Shown: one piece after another, positions 12,562 to 61,281 of the stretch
How the letters are laid out: every line of letters starts with the position of its first letter
Position numbering within the stretch: position 1 is the first letter of the stretch
DNA from: Moraxella lacunata
GTDB lineage: Bacteria > Pseudomonadota > Gammaproteobacteria > Pseudomonadales > Moraxellaceae
Length of the DNA: 64,000 bases
Direction: 5' to 3'
Assembly: GCF_900453205.1 (NCBI RefSeq)
Contig: NZ_UGQU01000004.1
Coordinates: forward strand, 186,001 to 250,000
Notes under the pieces: model-generated
The model's database searches: none
Seen by the model: only the letters and a program-made list of their open reading frames with translations
What the model was told of the DNA's origin: nothing
Position numbers and translations under genes: made by a program

Positions 12562-13311
12562 ATGGAACTCACCATTCAGATTATCTGCATACTCTTTTTT
12601 GTGGCGTTATTTGCAGGCTTTATTGATGCCATTGCAGGCGGGGGCGGGCTTTTGACCATTCCTGCTTTGCTTTTGACAGGCATGAATCCTGTGGCGGTGC
12701 TTGCCACCAACAAATTACAAGCGTCTGCTGGGTCATTCTCGGCAAGCCTTGCAATGATAAAAAAGGGACTCATTCACCCCAAAATGATGAAAATTGCTTT
12801 ACTCTTTGCCTTTATTGGCTCAGGCGTAGGGACGATTTTGGTACAGCTCTCACCCCCTGATTTTTTAAAAAAAGCCTTGCCCTTTGTCATTGGGCTGGTG
12901 GGGCTTTATACGCTGTTTTCGCCCAATTTAGGCAAATTACAAACCACCCCCAAAATGAGCCAAAAAACTTACGAGCGTACCATTGCCCCTTTGATTGGCT
13001 TTTATGATGGCTATTTTGGACCTGCGACAGGGACATTTTTTAGTCTGTCGCAGGTGGTTTTGCGTGGACGAGAATTGATACAAGCCACCGCTCGGGCGAA
13101 ACTGTTAAACTTTGCCACCAATTTTGCCAGTTTGATATTTTTTATCATTGGTGGGCAGATTGTTTGGGTGGTTGGGCTTGTGATGATGGTCGGGCAAATC
13201 ATTGGGGCATTTTTGGGCAGTCATTTTGTGGTCAAAGGCGGGGCAAAATTTATCCGCCCTGTGATTGTGGTGGTGTGTTTTTGTATGGTGGTAAGGTATG
13301 TTTTCTTTTGA
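12562..13311 (+). CDS. TSUP family (TauE/SafE) anion permease
   Basis: 249 residues with about eight hydrophobic spans and the characteristic GFIDAIAGGGGLLTIPALLL start with LATNKLQAS, repeated in modified form in the second half (GFYDGYFGPATGTFF). TSUP proteins move sulfite, taurine-derived or organosulfur anions across the inner membrane. Full length. A second TSUP gene lies at 15771. Confidence 0.9.
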   Translation: MELTIQIICILFFVALFAGFIDAIAGGGGLLTIPALLLTGMNPVAVLATNKLQASAGSFSASLAMIKKGLIHPKMMKIALLFAFIGSGVGTILVQLSPPDFLKKALPFVIGLVGLYTLFSPNLGKLQTTPKMSQKTYERTIAPLIGFYDGYFGPATGTFFSLSQVVLRGRELIQATARAKLLNFATNFASLIFFIIGGQIVWVVGLVMMVGQIIGAFLGSHFVVKGGAKFIRPVIVVVCFCMVVRYVFF

Positions 13312-13370
13312 TTGGATTGATATTGGGGGAAGGTGCGTAATAGGCAATCTTTAAAATCCAAATAACACCA

Positions 13371-13769
13371 TTATTCAAGCAGCTCAAAATTCAAATGCTT
13401 AGACGCTTTTTTATCAAAAGTCATCACGGGTAAATTATTTGCTGATTGGCAACGACAAGCAATTAACAAATCGGATAAATCATAAGTATTGGTTTTGGCG
13501 GATAACAATACTTGTTCTAATTTGGTTTGACTTTCAAAACAAAAAACAGGATTTTCCATTAACTCCAATAATTGCTCAATAATATCAATGCGAGTGATTT
13601 TATAACGAAAAGATAAAACCCAATTCACTTCCAAAACCACCAATAAAGGAATGTAGGCTTGGGCGTTTTTGTTTTCCAAATTCATTAAAAAATTGAGTAC
13701 GGTTTGATATTGGTTTTCATCGTCTTTTACCAAAAATCGCACAAGTACATTGGTATCCAAAGAAACCAT
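13371..13769 (-). CDS. PIN-domain toxin, VapC-like
   Basis: 132 residues. The four acidic positions of PIN ribonucleases are visible: Asp5 (VSLDTNVLVRF), Glu in LLVVLEVNWVL, Asp in YDLSDLLIACRC, and Asp in MTFDKKASKH. Such proteins cut tRNA or other RNA and arrest growth when the antitoxin is lost. The ATG directly abuts the stop of the upstream small gene (TAA then ATG with no gap), the usual antitoxin-toxin order. Assignment as a type II toxin is strong from domain and context; the RNA target is unknown. Confidence 0.85.
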   Translation of the reverse strand: MVSLDTNVLVRFLVKDDENQYQTVLNFLMNLENKNAQAYIPLLVVLEVNWVLSFRYKITRIDIIEQLLELMENPVFCFESQTKLEQVLLSAKTNTYDLSDLLIACRCQSANNLPVMTFDKKASKHLNFELLE

Positions 13770-14045
13770 TTAAATCTCCCTGCTTGCATATACTTCGGCA
13801 ATACTCTCATTCATTTCTTCAACGGTTGCTACCACTGTTGTTTTATTGGCAAGTCCACCTGCCAATTCTTGAATGGATTTGCGTGCTTTGATAGGCTTTT
13901 TGGCAACTTTTAATTGCATAAGCATTTCCAAAAAACTTTGGTCAAATTCAATTATACCGTGATTGTCAGCATAAGGGGCTAACTGCGACAAATCGACATT
14001 AGGAATGATTAGGGTATTATTTTGAATAATAGCGGTAACTTGCAT
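13770..14045 (-). CDS. Probable antitoxin partner of PIN toxin
   Basis: 91 residues from the ATG at 14045 (MQVTAIIQNNTLIIPN). An upstream in-frame start would add an unlikely extension. The N-terminal beta-strand pattern (AIIQNNTLIIP) resembles swapped-hairpin DNA-binding antitoxins, and the C-terminal half is acidic and helical (TVEEMNESIAEVYASREI), as expected for a region that wraps the toxin. Translationally coupled to the toxin. I do not recognise a named antitoxin family, so the call rests mostly on gene order. Confidence 0.65.
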   Translation of the reverse strand: MQVTAIIQNNTLIIPNVDLSQLAPYADNHGIIEFDQSFLEMLMQLKVAKKPIKARKSIQELAGGLANKTTVVATVEEMNESIAEVYASREI

Positions 14046-14139
14046 TGTCTGCTCCCAAAAATTCATTCCATTATAAATAAAATTCCCCAAAATCGCAAAT
14101 TATGCTAAAATGCCCCATTTAATTTTTGAAAAGCCCACA

Positions 14140-15360
14140 ATGACCCCAAAAAATATCCTACTTGCCTTAACTGGCGGTATTGCCTGTTATAAATCCGCCA
14201 TTTTGGCACGCCTGTTAATCAAGGCAGGGCATAGCGTGCGAGTGATGATGACGGACGGAGCGTGCCAGTTTATCACGCCTTTGACCTTGCAAGCCTTGAC
14301 AGGCAACGAAGTGCATACCAAACTGCTTGATGAAACCGCCGAAAGGGGAATGGGGCATATACAGCTTGCCAAATGGGCGGATTTGGTCGTCATCGCCCCA
14401 GCTTCTGCCAACACCATCGGCAAATTGGCAAACGGCTTGGCGGATAACCTTGTAACCACCGTCATTGTCGCCACCACCGCCCCTGTGTGGGTCTATCCTG
14501 CGATGAATCAGGCAATGTGGGGCAATGCCATTGTGCAGGATAATCTAAAAAAACTTACCCAATTTGGCTTTAAAGTTGCAAACCCTGACAGCGGTGAACA
14601 AGCGTGTGGCGATATTGGTATGGGGCGACTGCCAGAGCCTGAGGCGATTTGTGGACAAATTTTGGCGTTTTTTGAGCAACAAGAGACCGCCCAAACTTTG
14701 GCAGGCAAAACGCTCGTCATCACCGCAGGGGCAACCCTTGAGCCCATTGACCCTGTCCGCTATCTATCCAACCATTCCACAGGCAAAATGGGCTATGCCT
14801 TGGCAAGGGCGTGTGTGAATGCAGGGGCGAAGGTCATCATCGTGGCAGGCAGTAAGGTCAGTTTGTCCACACCAATGGGTGCGGATAAAATTACCATCGG
14901 CACGGCTGATGAGATGTTACAGGCGTGTTTGGAGGTTTGTAAAAGGGCGGATATTTTTATTGCCACCGCTGCCGTGGCGGATTTTAGAGTGGCAAATGTT
15001 GCCAGCCAAAAACTCAAAAAAACCGCCGACAATGACGGCTTGACCTTGCACCTTGTCAAAAACCCTGATGTACTGGCGACAATTTCCACCACTTATCCGC
15101 ACCTTTTGACCGTTGGTTTTGCGGCTGAAACACAGGACATTGAAAATTATGCCAAAGGTAAACTTGTTGCCAAAAATTTGGATATGATTGCGGTCAATGA
15201 TGTTTCAGATAAAAGTATTGGCTTTGGCAGTGATGACAATGCGATGACGGTGTTCTTTGCCGAAAAATATGGGCTTGATAAGGTCAATTTGGCAAAAATG
15301 AGCAAGGATAACATTGCCAAGAATTTGGTGGGGTGTATTGGGGAAATTTTGTCTAAATAA
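14140..15360 (+). CDS. coaBC: Bifunctional phosphopantothenoylcysteine decarboxylase/synthetase CoaBC
   Basis: 406 residues from ATG at 14140 (MTPKNILLALTGGIACYKSA); an in-frame ATG at 14110 would add a non-conserved leader. The N-terminal CoaC half has the flavin-binding start, APASANTIGKLANGLADN, the PAMNQAMW motif and the catalytic-Cys loop EQACGDIGMGR. The CoaB half has ITAGATLEPIDPVR, HSTGKMGYALA, AAVADFRV and VGFAAET. It makes 4'-phosphopantetheine from phosphopantothenate and cysteine in CoA synthesis. Divergent from the toxin pair. Confidence 0.95.
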   Translation: MTPKNILLALTGGIACYKSAILARLLIKAGHSVRVMMTDGACQFITPLTLQALTGNEVHTKLLDETAERGMGHIQLAKWADLVVIAPASANTIGKLANGLADNLVTTVIVATTAPVWVYPAMNQAMWGNAIVQDNLKKLTQFGFKVANPDSGEQACGDIGMGRLPEPEAICGQILAFFEQQETAQTLAGKTLVITAGATLEPIDPVRYLSNHSTGKMGYALARACVNAGAKVIIVAGSKVSLSTPMGADKITIGTADEMLQACLEVCKRADIFIATAAVADFRVANVASQKLKKTADNDGLTLHLVKNPDVLATISTTYPHLLTVGFAAETQDIENYAKGKLVAKNLDMIAVNDVSDKSIGFGSDDNAMTVFFAEKYGLDKVNLAKMSKDNIAKNLVGCIGEILSK

Positions 15361-15382
15361 GGGATTATTAGGGGTAATCATA

Positions 15383-15733
15383 ATGAATGACAATGACAAT
15401 GACAATATAGATTTTAAAAAAGAATATTGGCGTTTATTAGAATTGCCATTAATGGTAATTTCTATTTTTTATTTTGTCTTGATGATGGTATTTAGAGAGT
15501 CGGTTCGTAATTTTTTAAGGGCAAATGGCGAATTTCCTTTTATCATTATGATACTGCTTGCTTTTATGGCGTTTGTTGTTATCATTCATTTTATTGGTAA
15601 AAAATTGATGCTTGGCTTTTGTCTTAAAAAGCAATTTTCACGCCAGCAATTAGACCACTATAATCGCATTGCCAAAATTGTCCACGCCATTGCAATGATA
15701 ACGATGATGGCGTGGTTATTTGATTTGTGGTAA
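15383..15733 (+). CDS. Hypothetical small membrane protein
   Basis: 116 residues starting MNDNDNDNIDFKKEY at 15383. Three hydrophobic spans (about 22-40, 50-72, 97-113) separated by basic loops. No family recognised. It follows coaBC by 22 bp and may be cotranscribed. Confidence 0.65.
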   Translation: MNDNDNDNIDFKKEYWRLLELPLMVISIFYFVLMMVFRESVRNFLRANGEFPFIIMILLAFMAFVVIIHFIGKKLMLGFCLKKQFSRQQLDHYNRIAKIVHAIAMITMMAWLFDLW

Positions 15734-15770
15734 TTTTTTTTAGATAATAGGGTGGATTTTACAAGGACTG

Positions 15771-16530
15771 ATGATGAAATTTGAACTTTGGCTCATTCCC
15801 TTATTTGTCATTGCCAGCGTACTTCATGGTATTGCAGGTATGGGCTTTCCGCTGATTACCATTGGGGCGTTGTCGGGGGTCTATGGGCTGACAACCGCCA
15901 TTGTGTTGGTGCTTGTACCAACGGCGGTGCTTAACTTGATTGCGTGGGTCGGTGGCACAGGCGGTGTGTGGCACAACACCACCTTTTATCTCAAAAAATA
16001 TTGGTCGCTCGTTTTAGTCTCCATTTTGGGGCAGTGCGTTGGGGGCATATTTGCTTTTGGTGGTTAATTCTGCTTATCTGATGCTTGCCTTGGCGGTGGT
16101 GGTGCTGTGGTATGCGACTACGAGTCTGATGGGTAAAAAAATCGTCTTACCCAATACCACCACATCGCTTGTTGTCATCGGCTTTGTGGCAGGCGTGGTC
16201 GGTGGGGCAACCAATGCCATGTCGTCCGTGCTTTTGATGTACTTACTTTCAATGACCGATGATAAGGACACGATTATCAAAGTGGGGAATTTGTGCTATT
16301 TTGTCAATAAAATCGTGCAAGCCATTGTGTTAAAAGAATTTTTGTTGGAAGTACCCATTCAAACTTGGGCGATGATACTTGGGCTGACCGTTTTGTCGGT
16401 GCTTGGTATCATCATCGGGGCAAAACTTGGCAAACACCTGCCGTCCGCCAAATTTCGCACACTTATCCTGTGGGTGCTGGTCGGGCTTGGGGTGAAGGTG
16501 GGTTGGCAGGGTGTACAGGGGGTGCTGTAA
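15771..16530 (+). pseudogene. TSUP family permease, single-base frameshift
   Basis: Two frames together make one TauE/SafE-type permease of about 252 residues. The first runs from 15771 (start ATG-ATG) through GIAGMGFPLITIGAL to a stop at about 16067. The second carries VNSAYLMLALAVVVLWYATTSL onwards to 16530. Removing one G from the G5 run at 16041-16045 restores continuous reading (GQCVGAYLLLVVNSAYL). The gene is therefore broken by a +1 indel, or is intact and misread, or is switchable; the rest of the sequence shows no other damage, which favours a recent change or a sequencing error. Confidence 0.85.
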
Positions 16531-16603
16531 GACAAAGGGTTGTAAGGTGTGTAATGCCACTATTTTTATATATGCTGATAAGTTAAATGCAATGGGAGTT
16601 TAA

Positions 16604-16912
16604 ATGCTTAATTTATTTAACCTTGAACATCTGAATAAACATAAAAACCTTAAAAGCACCATCGCTTCTATTTGGGTGTGTGGTGCGATTGCGTTTACTA
16701 ATTGGCTTTATATCACCTACAAACTCACCTTTAATCCTTTTTTACTCATCGTAGGGATTGCATTATCTTATTATGTCATTTGTTTTTTGGTAAATCATTA
16801 TCTTGGCAAAAAGACCGTATCGCCCAAACAATTAAAAACAATCAACTACCTTGCTTGGGTTGTTTGGGCTATGCAATTAGTATTCATCATTTGGTTTTTT
16901 ATGATAAGATAG
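16604..16912 (+). CDS. Hypothetical small membrane protein
   Basis: 102 residues, about three hydrophobic spans (IWVCGAIAFTNWLYITYKL, PFLLIVGIALSYYVICFLV, WVVWAMQLVFIIWFFMI) and a basic loop HYLGKKTVSPKQLK. No recognised family. Standalone, followed by a repeat-filled spacer. Confidence 0.6.
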   Translation: MLNLFNLEHLNKHKNLKSTIASIWVCGAIAFTNWLYITYKLTFNPFLLIVGIALSYYVICFLVNHYLGKKTVSPKQLKTINYLAWVVWAMQLVFIIWFFMIR

Positions 16913-17060
16913 GTTTTTTAAAATATTGGTTTGAAATCAACTTTTAATCTCCCCCCAACTTACCCCAAACTTCCCCAAATATTCCTTAAAGCGCAAGGCG
17001 TACATCACGCACTGTCTTAGGTTTATTTTCCTAAATGGTGTGTGACACACGCCTACGAAT

Positions 17061-17206
17061 TATACTAACCGAACGATAAATTTGATACGGTTTTGTAGGG
17101 GCAAATCACATTTGCCCAATCAAGGTTTTAAACAAAAGGGCGAATATCATTCGCCCCTAAAATTCAATGGTGAATTTTGTAGCAGTTTTTAAATTCGGTT
17201 GGTATA
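17061..17206. repeat. 146-bp element with imperfect terminal inverted repeats
   Basis: Ends TATACTAACCGAA (17061-17073) and TTCGGTTGGTATA (17194-17206) are inverted with one mismatch. Inside are two small palindromes, GGGGCAAATCACATTTGCCC and GGGCGAATATCATTCGCCC. Just to the left, around 16985-17055, lie more short palindromes (GGCGTACATCACGC and GTGTGTGACACAC). The roughly 300-bp spacer 16913-17216 has no gene. Confidence 0.55.
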
Positions 17207-17216
17207 AAATAACAAT

Positions 17217-18011
17217 TTAGTCAATGCGTTTGCCTGCTTTATCTATATAAAAATACTCGCCATTCATTCTAACTAAAGCTTTGCCTTTTTCAAAATTATC
17301 AGGAAAATCATATTGAACAGGAATAACTATTTTTCCTGTCTTATTTATAAAACCATATTTACCATCGCGTTTTATGTGCGCTAATCCTTCTGTAAAATTT
17401 CCAGCATAATCAAATTGAAGGGGAATAATTACTTTGCCTGTTTTATCAATAAATCCCCATTTACCATTTTGTTCTACGCTTGACAGGTTTTCTGAAAAAT
17501 TGGACGCCCAGTCATAATCGGCAGGAATAACCACTTTGCCTGTTTTATCAATAAAGCCATGTTTGTCATTTTGTTTGATAACTGCCAAATCTTCTGAAAA
17601 ATCCCAAACATCATCATATTGAATGGGGATAACTGCTTTGCCTGTTTTATCAATAAACCCCCATTTGTCATTTTGCTCCACCCTTGCTAACCCATCTTCA
17701 AAATGAAAAGAAAAGTCATATTCAATGGGAATGATGATTTTGTCCGTTTCATCCACAAAACCAAATTTGCCGTTTTGTTCTACGCTCAATAAACCTTCTG
17801 AAAATCTCCCAATACCGTCATATTTAACAGGAATAACCACCTTACCTGTTTTATCAACAAAGCCATATTTGCCATTTTTTTTAACTTCCGCCAATCCATC
17901 TGACAAACAGTGAACATCATCATACCCTGCCACTTGCGGTATTTCGCACGCCAAAGCGGATATTGATGATAAAGATAGGGTAAGAATTAGGGGCTTTAAA
18001 AGTGATTTCAT
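17217..18011 (-). CDS. WG-repeat protein, exported
   Basis: 264 residues. A signal peptide (LILTLSLSSISALA) is followed by seven tandem units of about 32-34 residues built on KYGFVDKTGKVVIP-x-YD-x(2)-x-F-S/E-GLA. The repeats are typical WG beta-repeats, which form extended surfaces for binding; enzymatic function is not expected. The units are at about residues 35-265 and differ in a few positions, so the array is not a recent amplification. Likely periplasmic or outer-envelope. It lies just downstream of rtcR on the same strand but a link is not shown. Confidence 0.85.
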   Translation of the reverse strand: MKSLLKPLILTLSLSSISALACEIPQVAGYDDVHCLSDGLAEVKKNGKYGFVDKTGKVVIPVKYDGIGRFSEGLLSVEQNGKFGFVDETDKIIIPIEYDFSFHFEDGLARVEQNDKWGFIDKTGKAVIPIQYDDVWDFSEDLAVIKQNDKHGFIDKTGKVVIPADYDWASNFSENLSSVEQNGKWGFIDKTGKVIIPLQFDYAGNFTEGLAHIKRDGKYGFINKTGKIVIPVQYDFPDNFEKGKALVRMNGEYFYIDKAGKRID

Positions 18012-18079
18012 AAATAATCCTTATTTGATAAATTGACATTCATTTTATAAAAATTTTGGACAAATCACAAGTCATTAAA

Positions 18080-19663
18080 TCACCCCTTAATCTCCCCCCA
18101 ACTAATCCCAAACCTCCCCAAATATTTCCTTAATCTATCACTATCATTACTGACCTTTTTATCCAATCTTGACTGATTAAATAACGCCCGTCCTGCGCTT
18201 GCCATTGTAGGGTGGGATTGGCAAATTTGAATGACATTTAATAATTGCATTTTATCAAATTCATCTAAATGTTGGGCATTGATTTTGGTAAGCAAAGCAG
18301 GATTGATACCGACATCGTCTTTTATATCATCGTCCGCCCATAATTCTTTTAAACGCCCAATTTCATCATCAACCAATGTTTCATTGATTTTGCCATCATT
18401 TGCCAAAGTCGCAAGGCGTAAAATACTCGCCGACAAATCCCGAAAATTGCCCCGCCAAACCGCCCCATCGCTCATACAAAACGCCAAATACCGCTCATAC
18501 GCCCCCTTACCAAATCGCACTTTCCGCCCAAGCTCAAAGCCTGCAATGTCAAGCTGATAGGCGATGTTGGGGGCGATGTCTTCCTTGCGGTCTTTTAGGG
18601 CGGGCAGGGTGTATTGCCAAACATTGATACGGGCGTACAAATCTTCCCGAAATGTCCCCGCCCGCACACACGCCTTCAAGTCCTTATTTGTCCCTGCAAT
18701 CAGCCAAAAATCACTGTGTACAGGCGTATCCGACCCCATCGGATAAAAGCGTTTGTCTTCCAAAGCCGTCAAAAGCATCGCCTGCTCGTCCGCCCCAAGC
18801 TCGCCAATCTCGTCCAAAAACAGTACGCCCTGATGAGCAGTCAAAAGATAGCCATCCCGTGCCGTCATCGCTCCTGTAAACGCCCCTTTTTTATGCCCAA
18901 ACAGAGCCGAATACGCCATATCGCCCCGCAAAGTCGCACAATTAACTTCCACAAACCGCCCCGCCACCAGATGCCGAGCCTTTTTAAGCTCATAAATTCG
19001 CCGTGCCAGTTGCGATTTGCCCGCCCCAGTCGCCCCCATAATCAGCATTGGCGACTTTGAGCCCATCGCCACTTGTTCAATTTGCCCGATTAGGGCGTTA
19101 AAAGTGGGGTTTTGGGTGGCAATGTCGGTTTTCAAAAACCGCACCGCATCGTCCTTGACCTTGCTTAGGCGACTGGCTAGGGCATCATAACGAGCCAAAT
19201 CCAAATCAATCGTCTCCACTTGGCAAGGGCTGTCTTTGGGCGGGGCGGTCTGCAAAAGCAGGCTTGGGATTTGGCGGTTTTCCACCAGTAAAAACAGGCA
19301 AATCTGGGCAACGTGCGTGCCTGTGGTGATGTGGGTAAAATAATTTTCTTGTTCAATATCAAAAGGATAAGCGTCCGCCCAACTGGCAAGTTTTTCATAC
19401 ACTTCGCCAAAATCCCACGGATTATCAAGGGGCATATCCACCAAATTGACTTCTGTTTCTGGGCGAATCTCCTTAATGTCCGCCACCACTTGCTGGGCGA
19501 GTCGTTCGTATTTTGGCGAAATAAACAGCTCCACACGGTCAAACGTCATCACTTTATGTACATTGACATTGGGTCGCCATTTGGCGTGCCGTCTTTGGCT
19601 AAAACCATCGTCCAGCACCGTACCCAAAAAGCCAAGCATTACGGATTTTTTATGGTATCTCAT
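18080..19663 (-). CDS. rtcR: RtcR, sigma54-dependent RNA-repair transcription activator
   Basis: 527 residues, the usual RtcR length. Residues 1 to about 185 form the RtcR-type (CARF-like) sensor domain, with MLGFLGTVLD near the start and THITTGTHVAQICLFLLVE. The AAA+ domain has Walker A GATGAGKSQLARR, the sigma54-contact loop GAFTGA (in GHKKGAFTGAMTARDG) and Walker B VLFLDEIGEL. A C-terminal helix-turn-helix follows. RtcR senses RNA-derived signals, thought to be cyclic-phosphate RNA ends, and switches on RNA-repair genes. It is divergent from the kinase-ligase gene, with a sigma54-like site in the 209-bp gap. No rtcB or rtcA is in the window. Confidence 0.95.
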   Translation of the reverse strand: MRYHKKSVMLGFLGTVLDDGFSQRRHAKWRPNVNVHKVMTFDRVELFISPKYERLAQQVVADIKEIRPETEVNLVDMPLDNPWDFGEVYEKLASWADAYPFDIEQENYFTHITTGTHVAQICLFLLVENRQIPSLLLQTAPPKDSPCQVETIDLDLARYDALASRLSKVKDDAVRFLKTDIATQNPTFNALIGQIEQVAMGSKSPMLIMGATGAGKSQLARRIYELKKARHLVAGRFVEVNCATLRGDMAYSALFGHKKGAFTGAMTARDGYLLTAHQGVLFLDEIGELGADEQAMLLTALEDKRFYPMGSDTPVHSDFWLIAGTNKDLKACVRAGTFREDLYARINVWQYTLPALKDRKEDIAPNIAYQLDIAGFELGRKVRFGKGAYERYLAFCMSDGAVWRGNFRDLSASILRLATLANDGKINETLVDDEIGRLKELWADDDIKDDVGINPALLTKINAQHLDEFDKMQLLNVIQICQSHPTMASAGRALFNQSRLDKKVSNDSDRLRKYLGRFGISWGEIKG

Positions 19664-19820
19664 TAACTTATTTACCTATATTTTTAGATATAAATCTATC
19701 CAATATTATAGAATTTTTCCAAAAATCTAACAAGTAAATTTTAAATTTTCCCCAATATTAAAAATTTAATCCATTAAAAATCAATATCTTAAAAACGATT
19801 TTCCCCAAAATTGCCCAAGT

Positions 19821-19836
19821 TGGCACAAGATTTGGA
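19821..19836 (+). promoter_or_regulatory. Sigma54-type (-24/-12) promoter
   Basis: TGGCACAAGATTTGGA fits TGGCAC-N5-TTGCA/T, with the -24 GG intact, correct spacing, and one departure at -12 (TTGG for TTGC). It lies about 37 bp before the ATG of the kinase-ligase gene and beside divergent rtcR, exactly where an RtcR-activated promoter would be. Confidence 0.75.
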
Positions 19837-19872
19837 TAATAAAAAGTGTAAAAATCCAAAAAGGAAACACCA

Positions 19873-21387
19873 ATGCAAAAATTTATCCTAATTCGTGGTC
19901 ATCAAGGCTCTGGCAAATCCACCTTTGCCGAACAAAAAATCGCCGAATTTAAAACACAATTTCCAAATGGCGAAATCGTCCATATTGAAAATGACAAACT
20001 GTTGATTGATGAAAATGGCGTTTATCATTGGACGCCAGAGCGTATTGAAAAAGCGGTGCAAATCGGTCAAACCGCAATGAAAACCGCCTTTGAAAAAGCC
20101 AAAGCAAATCCTAATTTGGATATGCTTGTTATTAATTCAAATACCAACCAAAAATCATCGTCTTGCATTCATCTTTTACAATCGGCTCGTAAAAAAGGAC
20201 TGGTTACAGAAATTTATCGTTTGCATAATTTTTTTGACAATGTGCATAATGTCAAACGAGCCGATGTATTGTCTGCTTATATCAAATTAAACAATAATCA
20301 ACTTCGTGATGAGATTCATATTGAACCAATCCGCCCAATGAGCGATGATATTAAAACCGATATTGAAAAAATGAGCCAATTTGATAACAAAAAAGAATTG
20401 CCCTTTGACGAAAACCGCCAAAGCTATATTAGCGATGAGTATTTACAATATGGCAAAAGAAATTTTATCATCAAACAATCCAAAACTTATCCAGAATTGT
20501 TTGTATTAAAATATAAAAGAGAAATATTTTTTAATAATCGCTTTGATAATGCCTTACTTGAAATGCGTGGAACGGTGATTGATAAATACAACAATATTAT
20601 TGTTCGCCCATTTAAAAAGGTGTTTAATTATAGCGAGCGAATTTCCAAAAACAGCAAATATCCCATTAAGATAAGTGATGATACTTTGGTAGATGCGGTA
20701 TTAAAAGTCAATGGCTTTTTGGGGTTATGTACTTATGTAGAATTAGATGAAAGCCACCCAAGTTACCAAGCCAGTTTTAATAAAAAGGTGCTGTATTCCA
20801 CCACAGGGTCATTAGACAGCGACTTTGCCAAAATGAATAAAACCCATTGCCAAAAGTATGAGCCACTTTTTAAACAATATCCCAACCATACTTTTTTATT
20901 TGAAATCACCGATGAAAAAGATGTGCATATTATTAAAGAAATATTTGGCGAAACTTTGATTGGGATGATTGATGTGGCGAGCGGGCGACAATTTGACGAA
21001 GATGAGATTAATGCCATTGCCGATAAGTTTAATGCCGAGCAAGAAAAATTAAATACAGGCATAAAAATCACACGCCCACAAATCATTAAATCCATACCCT
21101 TTGGCGAATTAAAGATATTATTAAAAACCGTAGAACACGAAGGTTTTATGGTCTTTGATAGTGCAAGTAAAGAAATGCTTTTTAAACTTAAATCGCCGTA
21201 TTATTTGATTTCTAAATTTTTGGGGCGGAGTAAGGCAAGCAATCTTGGGCGAAAACTGGATAAAAGACAAGTTGATGAAGAATATTATCCTTTGATTGAT
21301 TATATCAAAGATAATCAAGAAAATTTTAATCAGTTATCAGAACTTGATAAAATTGCGTTTATTCAAGAGTTTTTGGGGCGATTGTAA
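19873..21387 (+). CDS. Polynucleotide kinase-RNA ligase fusion
   Basis: 504 residues. The N-terminal domain (about 1-165) is a P-loop kinase with Walker A GHQGSGKST (residues 9-17) and IENDKLLID. The rest resembles nucleotidyltransferase RNA ligases of the T4 Rnl1 type: motif I Lys278 in LKVNGFLGL (K-x-x-G), an upstream LEMRGTVID segment, a motif III-like HTFLFEITD, motif IV EGFMVF (Glu423), and motif V LFKLKSPYY (Lys438 and Lys440). It would phosphorylate 5'-OH ends and seal RNA using ATP. The likely start has an AAGGAAACACC RBS. Control by RtcR is inferred from the divergent gene and sigma54-like site. The exact ligase family needs a profile search. Confidence 0.8.
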   Translation: MQKFILIRGHQGSGKSTFAEQKIAEFKTQFPNGEIVHIENDKLLIDENGVYHWTPERIEKAVQIGQTAMKTAFEKAKANPNLDMLVINSNTNQKSSSCIHLLQSARKKGLVTEIYRLHNFFDNVHNVKRADVLSAYIKLNNNQLRDEIHIEPIRPMSDDIKTDIEKMSQFDNKKELPFDENRQSYISDEYLQYGKRNFIIKQSKTYPELFVLKYKREIFFNNRFDNALLEMRGTVIDKYNNIIVRPFKKVFNYSERISKNSKYPIKISDDTLVDAVLKVNGFLGLCTYVELDESHPSYQASFNKKVLYSTTGSLDSDFAKMNKTHCQKYEPLFKQYPNHTFLFEITDEKDVHIIKEIFGETLIGMIDVASGRQFDEDEINAIADKFNAEQEKLNTGIKITRPQIIKSIPFGELKILLKTVEHEGFMVFDSASKEMLFKLKSPYYLISKFLGRSKASNLGRKLDKRQVDEEYYPLIDYIKDNQENFNQLSELDKIAFIQEFLGRL

Positions 21388-21397
21388 AAAATAATCC

Positions 21398-21455
21398 GTA
21401 AGGTGCGTACCACGCACCAATAACACTCAATAACGGTGCGTAATACGCACCTTAC
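21398..21455. repeat. Palindrome between ligase and phosphoesterase genes
   Basis: GTAAGGTGCGTACCACGCACC and GGTGCGTAATACGCACCTTAC are inverted around a 16-bp loop, and each arm is itself palindromic. It could act as an mRNA hairpin that tunes read-through into the next gene. The same unit occurs at 2541-2561. Confidence 0.7.
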
Positions 21456-21471
21456 AATTTAAGGAAATACG

Positions 21472-22125
21472 ATGATTTATTTTACTTCCGATTTACATTT
21501 TCATCATCAAAATATCATCAAATTTTGCCCAACTTTTCGTCAAAACTTTGGCGATAGTCAAACGATGAATAAAGAGCTGATTGCCTTATGGAATGAAACG
21601 GTAAAGCCTGATGATATTGTTTATAATCTGGGCGATGTGTCATTTAGCCATCATCTAAACGAGATTGAGGTAGTATTAAAAGAGTTAAATGGCAAACATC
21701 ATCTGATTTTGGGTAATCACGATAACCTTATCGCCCAAAATCAAGAGCGTTTTTTAACAAAGTTAAAAAATGACGGCAATCCCATGTTATCATCGGTGCA
21801 GGATTATTTAAAATTAAATTTGAAAGAATTAAAACGCACGCTGATTTTATTTCATTATCCCATTGATGAATGGGACGGTTGTCATAAAGGCTATTATCAT
21901 TTGCATGGGCATATTCATGACCGCATGGCAAAGGTCAAAGGCAAGATTTTAAATGTCGGTTTTGATTTGCATGGGCGGTTTTTGACGCTTGATGATATTG
22001 ATGAGTTTTTAAAGAATTTGCCCAATGTGTCGCATTTTGGCGGTGATGATGAGATTGTGCTTTGTGATGATGTTTGTAAAAATGCCAAAAGGATAAAAGA
22101 TGAATTGTTAAAGACAAATACTTAA
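21472..22125 (+). CDS. Calcineurin-like metallophosphoesterase
   Basis: 217 residues with all metal-binding blocks: DLHFHHQN (residues 7-14), YNLGDVSF, LGNHDN, FHYPIDEW and HLHGHIHD. This is the compact phage/bacterial metallophosphoesterase type. Because it follows the kinase-ligase by 84 bp on the same strand, a plausible role is removal of 2',3'-cyclic or 3' phosphates from broken RNA before sealing, as the phosphoesterase module does in Pnkp-type repair enzymes. That role is inference; the family assignment is firm. Confidence 0.85.
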   Translation: MIYFTSDLHFHHQNIIKFCPTFRQNFGDSQTMNKELIALWNETVKPDDIVYNLGDVSFSHHLNEIEVVLKELNGKHHLILGNHDNLIAQNQERFLTKLKNDGNPMLSSVQDYLKLNLKELKRTLILFHYPIDEWDGCHKGYYHLHGHIHDRMAKVKGKILNVGFDLHGRFLTLDDIDEFLKNLPNVSHFGGDDEIVLCDDVCKNAKRIKDELLKTNT

Positions 22126-22216
22126 ATACAAATACTTGAATTTAAGTATTGAATTAAATTTTTATTTTTGGTATTATAGCGATAGTATTTTTAAATTGAT
22201 TTAAGAGGATTTTATT

Positions 22217-22585
22217 ATGATAAGCCAAGAATTAACCCATAAACTATTAACCAAAAACCCTTATTTTAATGTATCAGGTTTGACTTCATCAGAAGCCAAC
22301 TATATCTGTGAGCGTATCAAAGAAACCCTAAAACCAATCCAAGATGAGATTGTCAATCTAGAAACGCACACATCGAGCCTTGACGGTGAAGCATTGGATA
22401 ATTTTAAAAAGGTTAATGATATTGACGGCAAACTTGCCAGAATTGGTGAGCTGTATGCCATTTCTGCTTTTTTTAGAAGTGCCATTAAAGAAAAAGACAA
22501 TCGCCTTGATATGATTAACACTAAAATCAAACAAGTGCGAGATGAACAAGATACATTATTGGCAGGCATTGATATGGTAGAATGA
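22217..22585 (+). CDS. Hypothetical helical protein in RNA-repair island
   Basis: 122 residues, soluble, mostly predicted helix with coiled-coil character (ETLKPIQDEIVNLETH, then IKEKDNRLDMINTKIKQVRDEQD). No family recognised. RBS AAGAGG before the ATG. The 91-bp gap from the phosphoesterase includes TATTATAGCG, so it may have its own promoter. It is followed after 15 bp by another unknown gene on the same strand. Confidence 0.65.
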   Translation: MISQELTHKLLTKNPYFNVSGLTSSEANYICERIKETLKPIQDEIVNLETHTSSLDGEALDNFKKVNDIDGKLARIGELYAISAFFRSAIKEKDNRLDMINTKIKQVRDEQDTLLAGIDMVE

Positions 22586-22600
22586 CAACGCCTAATCAAT

Positions 22601-23092
22601 GTGGATATGGAAGATTATCTTTTAACATTGCCATTATCTGATGTGATGGCTTACAAAACTGCCGAAGCCAAAGCGTCTCATATTGGCAAATTTATCCATA
22701 ACTTTGATAAAATCCGCACGAGTCTTACCAAAAAAGAACGCATTAGTTTTAAAGAAGTGGGTGAGCAGGTATTTAAAATTCATCATACACCATTATATGA
22801 GTTAGATGAATTACAGCAATTACAAAACTATCTATTAGCCGAGCATAGAGAATATGAAAGCACGGTCAATGCCTATAAAGCCAAATTCCGTGAATTTCAA
22901 AATAAATCGTTTGTAACTTATGAAGAAGAGTATAATAAACGCTCTCACGAACGCCAAATGCTGTTAAACGAAAAAGTAAAAGCCGAAACCGAAAAACTCA
23001 TCGCTATAAAAAACGAGATTGCCAATTTTAAAATCATCGTGCCAAATGAATTTAAAGCAATCATTGATGAGTTATTGACCGTAAAACCATGA
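22601..23092 (+). CDS. Hypothetical coiled-coil protein in RNA-repair island
   Basis: 163 residues from GTG at 22601, or 161 from the ATG at 22607. Strongly helical and charged, with long coiled-coil segments (YNKRSHERQMLLNEKVKAE). No recognised domain. Probably cotranscribed with the preceding gene, 15 bp away. Its role next to the RNA-repair genes is unknown. Confidence 0.65.
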   Translation: MDMEDYLLTLPLSDVMAYKTAEAKASHIGKFIHNFDKIRTSLTKKERISFKEVGEQVFKIHHTPLYELDELQQLQNYLLAEHREYESTVNAYKAKFREFQNKSFVTYEEEYNKRSHERQMLLNEKVKAETEKLIAIKNEIANFKIIVPNEFKAIIDELLTVKP

Positions 23093-23148
23093 TAACCGAT
23101 TTTGGGGAAATGGGTTTTGACCTATAAAGCCCATTTTACCCAAAACCC

Positions 23149-23379
23149 AAAGTAGCACAAGGCAAAAAGAGAAGTGAGAGTCGCCTTAATAGGCACTCAC
23201 TATAATCTATCATACCAACTGTAAATTGGTCATAATGTTTCGCCCTATTTTTATCCTTAATGTTTGCCAATTTTGAAAAAATTGGAAAAATGTTAAGACT
23301 TTATCTTTGTCGTTGACTTTGCAAAAATAGGGGTCTTTGCTTTTGATTTTGGCTTGGTCTGCGTGCCTTGTGCTACTTT
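23149..23379. repeat. 231-bp candidate element with 16-bp perfect inverted ends
   Basis: AAAGTAGCACAAGGCA (23149-23164) and its exact complement TGCCTTGTGCTACTTT (23364-23379) bound a non-coding segment. No flanking direct repeat was evident. The spacer 23093-23623 has no gene; just after the 23092 stop there is also a loose hairpin built on AAATGGG and CCCATTT that could stop transcription. Confidence 0.55.
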
Positions 23380-23623
23380 ATCTTTTTATCTTTTATTTTC
23401 TTATCAATCACTTATCAAGCACTTCCCAAATACCCCGCAAACAACATAATCACTACAAAAATTTTGCCCTTTCAAACAAAAATCATTTGGCAATTTGGCA
23501 AAAATGGTGTATTTTATAGCGTAATATTTGCTTACATTTAAGCGTCTGATTGTGATTAATTTTTGAGCAATTTGACCGATTTTACTGCTAATACATTCCA
23601 TTTTAGAATATTAAGGAAGAATC

Positions 23624-25327
23624 ATGCAAAATTTTAGTATTCCTGCCGACCGTCCTTGGGTCAAAACTTATGCTGATAAAGGGCTTGATATTAATGTCAA
23701 AGTGCCAGACGGTGTCAATTCACTGCTTGACAGCTTTGAGCAGAACTTTGCCAAACATGGCAACAAAGTCGCCCTAACGTGCATGGGAGCATCCATCACT
23801 TACAGCGAGCTTGACACATACAGCCGTCAGATTGCCAGTTATTTGCAGTCGCTTGGGCTTGACAAGGGCGATAAAGTGGCGGTAATGATGCCAAATATTT
23901 TGCAGTATCCGATTGCGATGATGGGTATTGTGCGAGCAGGGTTTACACTTGTAAACGTAAACCCGCTTTATACACCGCATGAGCTAGAACATCAGCTCAA
24001 TGACAGCGGGGCAAAGGCGTTGTTCATCGTGGAGAACTTTGCTCATACCTTTGAAAAGGTCAAAAACAAAGGGCAAGTCAAGCACGTCATCGTGGCGAGC
24101 ATTGGCGATATGATGGGACTCAAAGGTATTTTGGTGAATTTGGTCGTCCGCCATGTCAAAAAAATGGTGCCAAGTTGGAACATTCCCAATGCCGTGAGTT
24201 TTAAAGATGCCCTAACGGCAGTATCGGCAAGTCGCTATGTCCGCCCCGAGCTGTCGCTTGATGACATTGCGGTGCTACAATACACGGGCGGTACGACAGG
24301 CGTGGCAAAGGGGGCGATGCTCACGCATAAGAACCTTGTGATTAACGTTGAGCAGTGCATGACATTTGTCAATAAGGTCTTTCCTGCCGATGAAGATTTG
24401 ACGGGTAAATACATCGCCACGGCGTTGCCTTTGTATCATATTTTCTCATTTACGGTATCCATGCTTGGTTTGAAGATGGGGTTTAGCTTGCTACTCATAA
24501 CCAACGCCCGTGATTTTGATGCCTTAACCAAAGACTTTGCCAAATATCGTCCCGTGTTTTTCCCTGCGGTCAATACTTTGTTTAATGCGTTGGCTCATCA
24601 TGAAGGCTTTAAAAACCTTGACCACACCAACCTACGTCTATCGCTTGGCGGGGGTATGTCGGTGTTACCAAGCACGGCAGAAGCGTGGGAGAAGCTCACG
24701 GGTACTTATATCGTTGAAGGCTATGGGCTGTCTGAGACATCGCCTGTCGCCACGCTAAATCCCCCAGGGAGCTACACGGGCAAAATTGGTATCCCATTTC
24801 CTAATACTGACATTATCCTATTAGACGATGACGGCAAAGAAGTGGCAATGGGTGAGCCGGGCGAGATTGCCATCAAAGGACCGCAGGTCATGGCAGGCTA
24901 CTACAACCGTCCTGATGAGACCGAGAAGGCCATGACAAAGGACGGCTACTTTAAGACGGGCGACATCGGTGTGATGGACGAGCAGGGCTTTGTCAAAATC
25001 GTTGACCGCAAAAAGGACATGATTTTGGTGTCGGGCTTTAACGTCTATCCTAACGAAGTCGAAGAAGTCATTACTGCTCACCCCAAAGTGCTAGAATGTG
25101 GCGTGATTGGTGTGCCTGATGAACATAGTGGCGAGTTGGTCAAAGTCTATGTGGTCAAAAAAGACGACAGCCTAACGGATAAAGAAGTCATCGCATGGGC
25201 AAAAGAGAATCTAACAGGTTATAAACGCCCCAAATATGTTGAGTTTATTGATGAATTGCCAAAATCTAATGTGGGCAAAATCTTGCGTAAGGATTTGCGT
25301 AAATTAGAAGAGGATAAAAAGGCGTGA
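23624..25327 (+). CDS. fadD: Long-chain fatty acid-CoA ligase FadD
   Basis: 567 residues, typical of FadD. The AMP-binding P-loop YTGGTTGVAKGAMLTHKNL, the linker/second signature VEGYGLSETSPVA and the C-terminal DRKKDMILVSGFNVYPNEVE are clear; the catalytic Lys lies in PKSNVGKILRKDLR. It activates fatty acids to acyl-CoA at the inner membrane for beta-oxidation or lipid synthesis. RBS AAGGAAGAATC before ATG. Monocistronic. Confidence 0.95.
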   Translation: MQNFSIPADRPWVKTYADKGLDINVKVPDGVNSLLDSFEQNFAKHGNKVALTCMGASITYSELDTYSRQIASYLQSLGLDKGDKVAVMMPNILQYPIAMMGIVRAGFTLVNVNPLYTPHELEHQLNDSGAKALFIVENFAHTFEKVKNKGQVKHVIVASIGDMMGLKGILVNLVVRHVKKMVPSWNIPNAVSFKDALTAVSASRYVRPELSLDDIAVLQYTGGTTGVAKGAMLTHKNLVINVEQCMTFVNKVFPADEDLTGKYIATALPLYHIFSFTVSMLGLKMGFSLLLITNARDFDALTKDFAKYRPVFFPAVNTLFNALAHHEGFKNLDHTNLRLSLGGGMSVLPSTAEAWEKLTGTYIVEGYGLSETSPVATLNPPGSYTGKIGIPFPNTDIILLDDDGKEVAMGEPGEIAIKGPQVMAGYYNRPDETEKAMTKDGYFKTGDIGVMDEQGFVKIVDRKKDMILVSGFNVYPNEVEEVITAHPKVLECGVIGVPDEHSGELVKVYVVKKDDSLTDKEVIAWAKENLTGYKRPKYVEFIDELPKSNVGKILRKDLRKLEEDKKA

Positions 25328-25460
25328 TAAGGTAAAAACCTATAACGCTTAAAAATCCGTCCAATCTGAATATTGCCAATGGGGATATTCTGGGTTGGGC
25401 GGTTTTGTTTTGGGGCAAAAACTGTTACAATAGTCCAAATTTTACTTTATAAGGCACATC

Positions 25461-26177
25461 ATGCGACACGACAACCGTGAATTATCCCAATTACGTCCCA
25501 TCAGCTTTATCCGCAACTACACCAAACACGCCGAAGGTTCGGTATTGGTGTGTTATGGCGACACCAAAGTGCTATGCAACGTCAGCATAGAGCAGGGCGT
25601 GCCACGTTGGTTAAAGGGGCAAGGTCAAGGCTGGCTTACCGCCGAATATGGCATGCTCCCACGAGCCACAGGCACCCGCACCCAACGTGAAGCGACTAAG
25701 GGCAAGCAGTCGGGACGCACCCAAGAGATACAGCGTCTTATCGGTCGCTCGCTCCGTGCCATGCTTGATTTGTCAAAACTGGGCGAGAACACCATTTATG
25801 TGGACTGCGATGTCATACAAGCAGACGGTGGCACACGCACGGCAAGTATCACAGGTTCGGCAGTGGCACTCATTGATGCCCTAGAGAGCCTACAACGAGA
25901 CAAAAAGCTGACCACAGACCCGCTCATCGGACTGGTGGGGGCAGTGTCGGTCGGTATCAAGGACGGACGGGCGTATTTGGATTTGGATTATGGTGAAGAC
26001 TCGACCTGTGATACGGATTTGAACGTGGTCATGACCCAAGCAGGTGGGTTTATCGAGATTCAGGGGACGGCAGAAGACAAGCACTTTACCCGTGATGAGG
26101 CAAATGCCATGCTTGACCTTGCCGAGTCTGGGATTAAAGAGATTTTTGAACTCCAAAAACAAGCGTTGGGCTGGTAA
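25461..26177 (+). CDS. rph: Ribonuclease PH
   Basis: 238 residues, the standard length. The start [16 protein letters not shown] and the conserved [35 protein letters not shown] and [14 protein letters not shown] segments are diagnostic. It trims tRNA 3' ends phosphorolytically. Its stop overlaps the next start (TAATG), so the two are coupled. Confidence 0.96.
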
Positions 26178-58208: not shown

Positions 58209-58607
58209 TTATTGTTTGGTTTCGGTGTCGGCAGGGGTGGTCTCTTCTGCTGTCGGTGCCTCAGTGGGGACAGGGGCTTCGGCAACAGCCATGGTCTCTG
58301 TTGTCTCTGTGCTTGCTGGCTTCGCCGTTTCTGTCGTCTCAGGAGTGGCTGTGGTGGTTTCTGCTACATCAGTAGTTGCAGTGTCGGTTGTGGTGGGGGC
58401 GACTGCACCTGACGCTCCACCAGCACCGCCCATTGTGGGCTGTCCGTGGTCATCAAATTTCACTTCTTCTGCTTTTGGGGCATTGGCTTTGGCATTTGCC
58501 TCGGCTTCTTCTAGTTTGTCCACGGCTTTTGGATGGGCGTGGTCGCCTCCGCAGGCACTAAGTAGTAGGCTCGTGCTGATGATGGCGGTAAATAATTTGG
58601 CTTTCAT
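58209..58607 (-). CDS. Thr/Glu/Ala-rich lipoprotein
   Basis: 132 residues from ATG 58607; lipobox LSAC at residue 18 or so. The mature part has DHAHPKAVDKLEEAEANAKA and a long low-complexity ATTTDTATTDVAETTTATPE-like tail. Low complexity suggests a flexible surface spacer; function unknown. Confidence 0.75.
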   Translation of the reverse strand: MKAKLFTAIISTSLLLSACGGDHAHPKAVDKLEEAEANAKANAPKAEEVKFDDHGQPTMGGAGGASGAVAPTTTDTATTDVAETTTATPETTETAKPASTETTETMAVAEAPVPTEAPTAEETTPADTETKQ

Positions 58608-58711
58608 GAGAACTCCTAACGGATGACTATTCAAATAATGCTATTATGCCACAAATAGCAGGGAATTGACAATTTATAATCTTGCACTCTGCCATTTGTG
58701 GTTTGGCTTTA

Positions 58712-60013
58712 TTATTCTAAACTTTCTAGGCGGATACGCACCACAGGCTCGGTGACCGCCCCAAGGACTTCTATCTCTTTGATGGCTTTGTTCATCTGTG
58801 ATTCTAGTACGGGCAAGGTCAAGATGATGACAGGTACGAGTCCTGATTTGTGAGCGTCACGTTGCATGATGGCGTCAATGTTAATGCCGTTTTCACTCAG
58901 AATGCGAGTGGTGTCAGCCAGTACGCCCAGCTCGTCTTTGACCGTCAAGCGCAGATAGTAGCCACAGGTCATCTCATCGCTAGATAGGATGCGAGTGTCG
59001 GACAGCTCTTCGGGGACGAACGCCAGATGTGGTACGTCGCTTGGGGTGTTGGCATTGATGACATAAATCAAATCCATGACATCCGCCATGACTGCCGATG
59101 CTGTCGCTCCCGCTCCTGCCCCATCGCCATAATACAACGACTGCCCCAGCGGGTGAGCATCTACCATGACGGCATTTTTTACGCCATTGACATTGGCAAG
59201 TAGGGTGCTGTTGGGGATAAGCGTGGGATGGACACGTAGCTCAAAGCCGTGTTCACGGCGAAACGCAAAGCCGAGGTGCTTGATGATGTAGCCAAGCTCT
59301 TTGGCGTAGACCACGTCTTGCAAGTTAATTTTGGTGATGCCTTCACAGTACACTTTGTTAAACTGCAAGGGAATGCCAAAGGCAATCGATGCCAACAAGG
59401 ACAGCTTATGAGCGGCGTCAATACCTTCAACATCAAAGGTGGGGTCAGCTTCGGCATAGCCTAGGGCTTGGGCTTCTTTTAGTACGTCACCAAAACGACG
59501 GTTTTTTTGTTGCATTTCGGTCAGGATAAAGTTGCCCGTACCATTGATGATGCCTGCCACCCAGTCCACTTTGTTGGCGGCTAGGGCTTCACGGATGATT
59601 TTGATGATGGGAATGCCACCTGCCACCGCCGCTTCGTAACGCACCTGCACGCCATGCTCTTCGGCAAGCCCAAAAATCTCATTGCCATGTTCGGCAAGTA
59701 AGGCTTTGTTGGCGGTGACGACGTGTTTTTTGTGTTTGATGGCGTGGATGATGACGTCTTTGGCGACGCTCTTACCGCCAATCACTTCGATGACGATGTC
59801 CACATCATCATCGGCGGCGATTGCCATCAAATCATCGCTTTGTTTGATGGTGGGGTCAATGTCATCTCGCTGCCTCCTTGTGCCGACGTGAGTGATATAG
59901 ATGTCATGACCGCTACGGCGAGACAGCTCAACGGCGTTGTCTTTTAGTAGGTTGACCACGCCCGTACCAACTGTTCCCAGACCCAAAACCGCAATGTTAA
60001 TTTTATCTTTCAT
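58712..60013 (-). CDS. hom: Homoserine dehydrogenase
   Basis: 433 residues. NAD(P)-binding LGLGTVGTGVVNLLKD, catalytic region with GIINGTGNFILTEM and AEADPTFDVEGIDAAHKLSL (shown as DPTFDVEGIDAAHKL), and a C-terminal ACT domain (DELGVLADTTRILSENGINI) for threonine feedback. Produces homoserine for Thr and Met synthesis. Lies after dsbC on the same strand. Confidence 0.96.
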   Translation of the reverse strand: MKDKINIAVLGLGTVGTGVVNLLKDNAVELSRRSGHDIYITHVGTRRQRDDIDPTIKQSDDLMAIAADDDVDIVIEVIGGKSVAKDVIIHAIKHKKHVVTANKALLAEHGNEIFGLAEEHGVQVRYEAAVAGGIPIIKIIREALAANKVDWVAGIINGTGNFILTEMQQKNRRFGDVLKEAQALGYAEADPTFDVEGIDAAHKLSLLASIAFGIPLQFNKVYCEGITKINLQDVVYAKELGYIIKHLGFAFRREHGFELRVHPTLIPNSTLLANVNGVKNAVMVDAHPLGQSLYYGDGAGAGATASAVMADVMDLIYVINANTPSDVPHLAFVPEELSDTRILSSDEMTCGYYLRLTVKDELGVLADTTRILSENGINIDAIMQRDAHKSGLVPVIILTLPVLESQMNKAIKEIEVLGAVTEPVVRIRLESLE

Positions 60014-60198
60014 GAATGCCCCAACTGGTTATCTATAACAAAAATTAACGGTAAAACCGAACTGCTTAACTTATCATAAGTTCATGGCTTATGCTAGGGG
60101 TTTGTAAAAATTTTTATGGGTTTTGTCAAAATTTTTTGTAAAAATTGTAACAGGTGATGGGACTTGATGAGTGTGGTGATTTGTTTTTAAAATCTTAT

Positions 60199-60228
60199 AA
60201 AAAAGGGCTAAAAACCGAGCCCTTTTGT
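60199..60228 (-). terminator. Terminator after dsbC
   Basis: On the minus strand AAAGGGCT and AGCCCTTT with T6, between dsbC and hom. Confidence 0.8.
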
Positions 60229-60249
60229 TTGTTATTTATAAATTAACCA

Positions 60250-61089: not shown

Positions 61090-61281
61090 GATGATAAATG
61101 ATAAAAGGAAAAATGAGCTATTATACCAAATTTTGCCATGATTTCCCAATACTTTTATACAAATGTTCAAAACAATCGATGATGAGATGGGTGGATGATG
61201 GGGTTTGTGATTGTCAAAAAATTTTAATATTGTTGTGTTAAAATATACCTTTTATTTGAACAAATCAAAAGCAGGGCAATC

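Follow-up and report, generated by a model that had tools for sequence, protein, structure and literature searches.

A kinase-ligase fusion and a metallophosphoesterase beside rtcR in Moraxella lacunata: a candidate RNA heal-and-seal operon

Introduction

What does the transcriptional activator RtcR govern where neither rtcB nor rtcA lies next to it? The question is raised by a locus at 18080-23092 of a 64,000-nucleotide stretch of the Moraxella lacunata genome (assembly GCF_900453205.1, contig NZ_UGQU01000004.1, positions 186,001 to 250,000; hereafter the window), which is on contig 3 of the 2.83-Mb genome. Here rtcR reads leftward (19663 to 18080), divergently from three genes that read rightward: a polynucleotide kinase fused to an RNA ligase (KINLIG), a metallophosphoesterase (MPE) and a coiled-coil gene (CC). 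An earlier interpretation of the bare letters (the sequence-only reading) had proposed that these genes repair broken RNA under RtcR control; its open reading frame coordinates are confirmed, while the single strand it gave to all the genes is common only to those other than rtcR. From comparisons with related loci and genomes, we consider it probable that the locus is an RtcR-controlled operon that heals and seals RNA ends.

Results

The operon encodes a predicted kinase-ligase and a phosphoesterase

The C-terminal half of KINLIG matches a ligase family, one of the points on which the sequence-only reading depended. Residues 231-444 match RNA_lig_T4_1 (PF09511) at 32.8 bits against a gathering cut-off of 28.3, and in PHROGs the protein matches both the Rnl1 family (phrog_562, 9.8e-33) and a polynucleotide kinase family (phrog_505, 7.8e-6), in line with the proposed fusion. 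Searches of the PDB by sequence, with KINLIG alone or as a profile, returned nothing useful; Foldseek with the structural model ranked T4 Rnl1 first (2c5u, 8.7e-8) and T4 polynucleotide kinase 13th (1ly1, 5.7e-4). In an alignment of 19 of the 21 distinct KINLIG loci defined below (L051 and L057 were omitted, the KINLIG of L057 being broken), the P-loop GxxGSGKxT (G14, K15), D41, K278, E344, HEGF (E423/G424), K438 and K440 are all invariant. We take K278, E344, E423/G424, K438 and K440 to belong to the ligase motifs. K278, whose conservation was a second point of dependence, is the predicted nucleotidyl lysine, and the ligase half is predicted to join 3'-OH to 5'-phosphate RNA ends in an ATP-dependent reaction.

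MPE stands downstream of KINLIG in 21/21 loci. It matches the phosphoesterase family phrog_547 (5.1e-45) and, as a profile of the same 19 loci, PDB entry 1xm7 (6.8e-12), which agrees with the metallophosphoesterase first proposed, even though Pfam Metallophos_2 itself stays below its cut-off (17.4 bits versus 27). The motifs DxH, GD, GNHD, H and GHxH, the set found in calcineurin-like phosphoesterases, are invariant in all 19 sequences.

RtcR is the predicted regulator of the operon

The regulator exceeds the cut-off of the NCBIfam equivalog NF038308 (724.8 bits versus 650, residues 5-526) and matches the RtcR/CARF domain (PF06956, 1.2e-62), the sigma54-activator AAA+ domain (PF00158, 1.2e-48, with GAFTGA in the translation) and the PADLOC RtcR profile CARF_AAA_HTH (1.1e-230), as expected from the CARF-like, AAA+ and helix-turn-helix regions originally recognized. 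Four results argue that it controls the KINLIG operon: co-presence within the genus, the branching of RtcR, a sigma54-like site together with RpoN, and a genome that carries RtcR and KINLIG with no detectable RtcB.

Among 22 Moraxella genomes, the same 7 carry KINLIG and RtcR; as these genomes are related, they do not amount to 22 independent tests. In an unrooted tree, a 100/100 branch separates the 14 RtcRs of KINLIG genomes from 7 RtcBA-linked RtcRs (L067 and L069-L074, all with both RtcB and RtcA; G096, which has RtcR and no KINLIG, was not used), with a long-branch warning for these 7, of which 5 come from the window's own family. The sigma54-like site upstream of KINLIG, TTGGCACAAGATTTGGA, also noted in the sequence-only reading, has a canonical -24 box; its -12 box is the unusual TTGG, the consensus being TTGC. 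The two strands of the window together hold 5 instances of the relaxed motif, this site among them, so that alone the site carries no significance. In 9 of the 11 KINLIG loci that bear RtcR (window, L013-L018, L048 and L053), the relaxed pattern does recur ahead of the first gene, with the canonical TTGCA at -12 in Alysiella (L048) and Neisseria elongata (L053), and rpoN is present in 7/7 genomes searched. Palindromes upstream of the promoter proved uninformative owing to A+T richness.

The fourth result bears on whether RtcR might instead act mainly in trans, on unlinked rtcB or on other genes, its place beside KINLIG being incidental. The window's genome does carry rtcB, on contig 5, so that the enzymes replace RtcBA, as the sequence-only reading put it, in the operon and not in the genome; overall, rtcB was found in 13/23 genomes searched, 9 of those with full-length KINLIG. 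However, the 522 bases upstream of the window genome's rtcB contain no relaxed sigma54 pattern, rtcB also occurs in congeners that lack RtcR (G003 and G006), and in Cardiobacterium hominis, which carries both RtcR and KINLIG, RtcB is not detectable, while the co-presence of RtcR and KINLIG in the genus is exact. Action mainly in trans is thus very unlikely, and control of the adjacent operon remains the preferred reading.

Neither rtcB nor rtcA adjoins rtcR, and RtcA was found in 0/12 genomes of the family, the window's included; RtcB went undetected in 5 of the 10 KINLIG genomes examined. Because of the missing RtcA and of C. hominis, the RtcR of KINLIG loci probably works without RtcAB. In E. 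coli, RtcAB were reported as required for RtcR activation (according to the available text of PMC9650030). With no RtcA found in the 12 genomes, that requirement could not hold unchanged in the KINLIG system, which predicts that it is not general.

The module accompanies known RNA-repair partners and is rare

The 21 distinct KINLIG loci (window, L013-L020, L045-L051, L053-L055, L057 and L058; L and G numbers denote loci and genomes) combine the relatives' set with a scan of genome contigs, in which 21 loci were found, after removal of repeats and fragments. The repeats were L040-L044 and L056, each sharing identical DNA with another locus (L013/L040, L014/L041, L016/L042, L018/L043, L019/L044 and L017/L056); also left out were L052, in which KINLIG is cut at a contig edge, the N-terminal fragments L059 and L060, and the partial matches G040 and G137. 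The loci span Moraxella, Neisseriaceae, Cardiobacteriaceae, Pasteurellaceae and Campylobacter. In 11 of them RtcR is encoded on the retrieved stretch around KINLIG, which answers the third point of dependence, that homologues of the downstream genes should be found near rtcR; in 14 it is encoded somewhere in the genome.

The heal-and-seal reading is supported because the KINLIG-MPE module sits with known RNA-repair partners: Ro60/Rsr in 7/21 loci (L045, L046, L047, L048, L051, L053 and L057, of Neisseriaceae and Cardiobacteriaceae), and YrlA, at the Rfam cut-off, in 6/21 (the Rsr-bearing loci except L048). Thg1 is encoded in three (L045, L046 and L057), the window not among them. The TROVE domain of Ro60/Rsr was found in 0/12 genomes of the family, and positions 13000-26000 of the window gave no YrlA match up to an E value of 1.

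Full-length KINLIG occurs in 9 of 145 relatives, the window's genome included (any match in 11, those of G040 and G137 being partial), and in 1 of 398 genomes sampled across the phylum, the window's own; six others match the kinase half only. As to origin, the genes might be a domesticated phage tRNA-repair cassette, used mainly against the cell's own tRNA-cutting defences or toxins, with the link to RtcR secondary. By tblastn, KINLIG has matches in 665 of 50,697 phage records, and of the 20 rows listed 18 show a match that starts no earlier than residue 163, in the ligase half; the PHROG families matched are Rnl1, phage RNA ligase, polynucleotide kinase and phosphoesterase, and in L013 a PIN-domain gene pair stands between rtcR and KINLIG. 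Yet just 1 of the 665 records covers at least 80% of KINLIG and all are below 60% identity, and the RtcR and KINLIG trees both split the Moraxella rows from those of Neisseriaceae and Cardiobacteriaceae, as long shared travel of the two genes would produce. We regard a phage cassette as possible and lean away from it; it concerns origin and is compatible with a heal-and-seal function. Among plasmids, five records show similarity to KINLIG, in every case from residue 209 onward and so in the ligase half, and 7 pattern matches on viral contigs included no relative.

A proposed course of repair, and the points against it

The genes present, the families they belong to, the catalytic residues they conserve, a promoter-like site that keeps its position in most RtcR-bearing loci and co-inheritance with one RtcR group are consistent with the following course, whose enzymatic steps, ligand and sequence are all predictions. 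An endonuclease would cut a tRNA, or some other structured RNA, to give ends with a 2',3'-cyclic phosphate and a 5'-OH, and the 5' half would bind the CARF domain of RtcR; the Salmonella protein binds 5' tRNA halves that end in a 2',3'-cyclic phosphate (available text of PMC7790460). RtcR would then activate sigma54 RNA polymerase at 19820-19836, and KINLIG and MPE would be made. MPE may open and remove the cyclic phosphate to leave a 3'-OH, the kinase half may phosphorylate the 5'-OH, and the Rnl1-type half could seal the ends with ATP through Lys278. By destroying the ligand of RtcR, MPE might also switch the system off. RtcB would instead use 2',3'-cyclic phosphate and 5'-OH ends directly, and RtcA would have no role in the chemistry of KINLIG and MPE. 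On all three points of dependence, namely the ligase profile, the conservation of Lys278 and the proximity to rtcR, the results favour repair under RtcR control as the sequence-only reading had it. For the PIN or WHH toxins that it suggested as a possible source of the cuts, the one related observation is the PIN-domain gene pair of L013.

Several observations weigh against this reading. No RtcR was found in 7/21 KINLIG genomes, several of which are drafts or assembled from metagenomes, and the enzymes may thus work without RtcR; in a metagenome-assembled genome of the Cardiobacteriaceae (L050:4371-7946), the genes ahead of KINLIG encode a histidine kinase and, in place of RtcR, a response regulator of the sigma54-activator type. 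The -12 box of the window is not canonical, and the relaxed sigma54 pattern was not found in L045 (C. hominis) and L047, both of which bear RtcR. The kinase half has weak matches in Pfam (best 0.002, below the cut-off), and the KINLIG model is of low confidence (mean predicted local distance difference test score, pLDDT, 59). RtcB is retained in the window's genome and could be the true repair ligase, and the reported RtcAB requirement in E. coli counts on the same side.

A tRNA-like RNA precedes some repair operons

Six loci encode an RNA of ~223-242 nucleotides that resembles a tRNA, with a 7-bp acceptor stem, an encoded ACCA, a D-like arm, a T arm and a long structured insert (Table 1). The copies in L016-L018 are 230-234 nucleotides long, with T arm, acceptor stem and ACCA at their end. 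In L016-L018 and Eleftheria the pattern places a sigma54-like site directly before the RNA; in Conchiformibius such a site was seen by eye only. Full copies are rare, in 3/96 relatives and 4/21 KINLIG loci. The window, L013, L014 and L015 are without one, with about 50-57 nucleotides between the sigma54-like site and the start codon; the best score in the window against our RNA model is 7.7 bits, at an unrelated place. With that model the six sequences score 169-248 bits, and nothing else in 31 sources scores above 22.8.

The six sequences share 62 predicted pairs, 26 with changes on both sides, and 94.8% of cells pair versus 37-54% with the partner slid, a comparison biased towards the structure, which was itself derived from this alignment. 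In four of five measures none of 500 shuffles reached the values of the RNA, and in the fifth, further pair types, 143 of 500 did, which speaks against the structure; these shuffle statistics ignore relatedness. No Rfam family was matched at the cut-off by the copies searched (L016-L018 and L049), and no match to the RNA was found in phage records. Assignment as tmRNA or YrlA was rejected at 21.8 and 17.5 bits, below the cut-offs of 47 and 69. Matches of ~30 bases on Nocardia and Rhizobium plasmids (5/6 records) were set aside as T-arm fragments. Over 398 Pseudomonadota, the RNA model R1 matched 151 genomes at 1e-5, and among the matches listed only G104, itself part of the model, exceeds 36 bits; most of the others listed are tRNA-sized and strict filters may lose weak matches, and R1 was not retained as a general finder.

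The occurrence of this RNA with both ligase types suggests a wider proposal, which we hold tentatively and with slightly more doubt than belief: RtcR/sigma54 repair operons, with KINLIG or RtcB, would have a tRNA-mimic RNA partner (scaffold, decoy or sensor ligand) that replaces Rsr/YrlA, and RtcR with KINLIG would work without RtcA and RtcB.

The coiled-coil gene is interrupted

Downstream of MPE, the sequence-only reading had counted two coiled-coil genes. They are one: the pieces 22217-22585 and 22601-23092 share a reading frame and are parted by an in-frame TGA, and CC is a single intact frame of about 290-309 amino acids in 5/6 KINLIG-bearing congeners (L014, L015, L016, L017 and L018). 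The L015 protein matches 22217-23089 of the window by tblastn at 94%. In L013, the nearest relative, CC is broken by another frame break; as the lesions differ, they suggest either repeated loss of CC in the lineage or sequence error. In the M. lacunata strain, CC has probably lost its function or yields no more than an N-terminal piece, and the window would accordingly hold a reduced form of the system. Within the set of 21 loci, CC occurs in Moraxella alone (7/21, counting the interrupted window copy and the broken L013 copy). The L015 protein is modelled as an all-helical, long coiled coil (mean pLDDT 75.8) for which Foldseek gave no match at 0.001 or below; CC matched no Pfam family at the curated cut-off and nothing in PADLOC or PHROGs at 0.01, and we therefore propose no function for it beyond the coiled coil.

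These lesions could also mean that the whole island is decaying under relaxed selection, non-functional, the more so as the window lacks ORF260, an N-terminal extension of MPE and the tRNA-like RNA, which some relatives have. Against this, KINLIG, MPE and RtcR are 88%, 82% and 95% identical to the nearest relative, all three are open over their full length, and the catalytic motifs of KINLIG and MPE are kept. Decay of the island is therefore unlikely, and a functional repair operon with a reduced gene set is the better account.

Relation to known repair systems

Modular RNA repair operons with a kinase, a phosphatase, a ligase, Ro60 and a Y RNA are a known kind of system. The locus shares RtcR, sigma54 control, a divergent operon and RNA repair enzymes with the RtcR-rtcBA and rsr-yrlBA-rtcBA systems of E. 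coli and Salmonella, and some relatives of KINLIG keep Rsr and YrlA beside them. It differs in its predicted ligase chemistry, an ATP-dependent Rnl1 type with kinase and MPE in place of RtcB and RtcA, and in that Rsr, YrlA and RtcA were not found for the window (within the genomes and positions given above). T4 Pnkp and Rnl1, which repair tRNA, are likewise a polynucleotide kinase and an Rnl1-type ligase and are among the best structural matches; in T4, however, the phosphatase is fused to the kinase, whereas in the window kinase and ligase are fused, the phosphatase would be the separate MPE, and the genes are host-encoded next to RtcR. Pnkp/Hen1 combines a P-loop kinase, a metallophosphoesterase and an ATP-dependent ligase, the activities predicted here, in the order kinase-MPE-ligase, with a domain order and ligase family unlike those of the window, where MPE is a separate gene and not part of a single polypeptide.

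Gene neighbourhoods that join Thg1 to a polynucleotide kinase and an RNA ligase have been described, with Neisseria elongata among the organisms listed (PMC2904730, 2010); RtcR has 0 occurrences in the available text of that paper, and Thg1 accompanies the minority of KINLIG loci given above. RtcR-like regulators also govern CoCoNuT and restriction superoperons rather than rtcBA (available text of PMC11090510 and PMC4012209), where the targets are nucleases and restriction genes; the predicted target of the window's RtcR is a repair ligase. A literature search by titles and the beginnings of abstracts, outside which the 2016 survey by Burroughs and Aravind (Nucleic Acids Research) fell, returned no paper that deals with an RtcR-KINLIG-MPE operon or with the tRNA-like RNA. 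The abstract of that survey reportedly refers to a new tRNA-like molecule and to a variety of kinase/ligase systems, and the survey may already contain the operon or the RNA.

RtcR, a sensor of broken RNA, thus appears to be coupled to a second, chemically different repair route. If so, one broken-tRNA sensor would serve two chemically unrelated routes, RtcB without healing and a kinase, phosphoesterase and ATP ligase, and genomes of the C. hominis type would offer a direct test of whether RtcR needs RtcAB or whether broken RNA as ligand is enough. The presence of the tRNA-like RNA next to either type of ligase would, for its part, suggest that bacterial RNA repair systems have an RNA cofactor in common.

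Features and neighbouring genes

Table 1 Features of the repair locus and of related loci. Coordinates without a prefix are positions in the window.
Feature	Coordinates	Strand	Description
rtcR	18080..19663	-	sigma54-dependent activator: CARF-like sensor, AAA+ (GAFTGA), C-terminal DNA-binding region
sigma54-like -24/-12 site, TTGGCACAAGATTTGGA	19820..19836	+	53 nucleotides upstream of KINLIG start
KINLIG	19873..21387	+	predicted fusion of a P-loop polynucleotide kinase (residues ~1-170) with a T4-Rnl1-type ATP-dependent RNA ligase (~200-500)
MPE	21472..22125	+	calcineurin-like metallophosphoesterase, predicted to remove 2',3'-cyclic phosphate/3'-phosphate
CC	22217..23092	+	one coiled-coil gene of ~300 amino acids, in-frame TGA at 22583-22585
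tRNA-like RNA	L016:9698-9927	+	Moraxella, between sigma54-like site and KINLIG
tRNA-like RNA	L017:10473-10706	-	Moraxella, between sigma54-like site and KINLIG
tRNA-like RNA	L018:10390-10623	-	Moraxella, between sigma54-like site and KINLIG
tRNA-like RNA	L049:3121-3362	+	Conchiformibius, upstream of ORF260-KINLIG
tRNA-like RNA	L066:8003-8233	+	Eleftheria terrae plasmid, directly upstream of rtcB
tRNA-like RNA	L067:9758-9980	-	G104, between rtcB and rtcA

The gap between KINLIG and MPE (21388-21471) holds a short inverted repeat of the type GGTGCGTA..TACGCACC, seen by eye. The extra gene ORF260, present in 3/21 KINLIG loci and matching no Pfam family, occupies this gap in L014 and L015.

On the other side of the locus, a gene for a protein with 7 WG repeats (17217-18011) adjoins rtcR, and relatives of it are also near rtcR in L013 and L015. 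The genes that flank the KINLIG operon in L014, L016, L017 and L018 sit at 58209-61170 of the window, ~35 kb away, and the region has thus been rearranged. The insertion between rtcR and KINLIG in L013 (Moraxella caprae) consists of the PIN-domain gene and a small upstream partner (L013:11399-12080), and the window encodes a relative of this PIN protein (35% identity) at 13377-13769.

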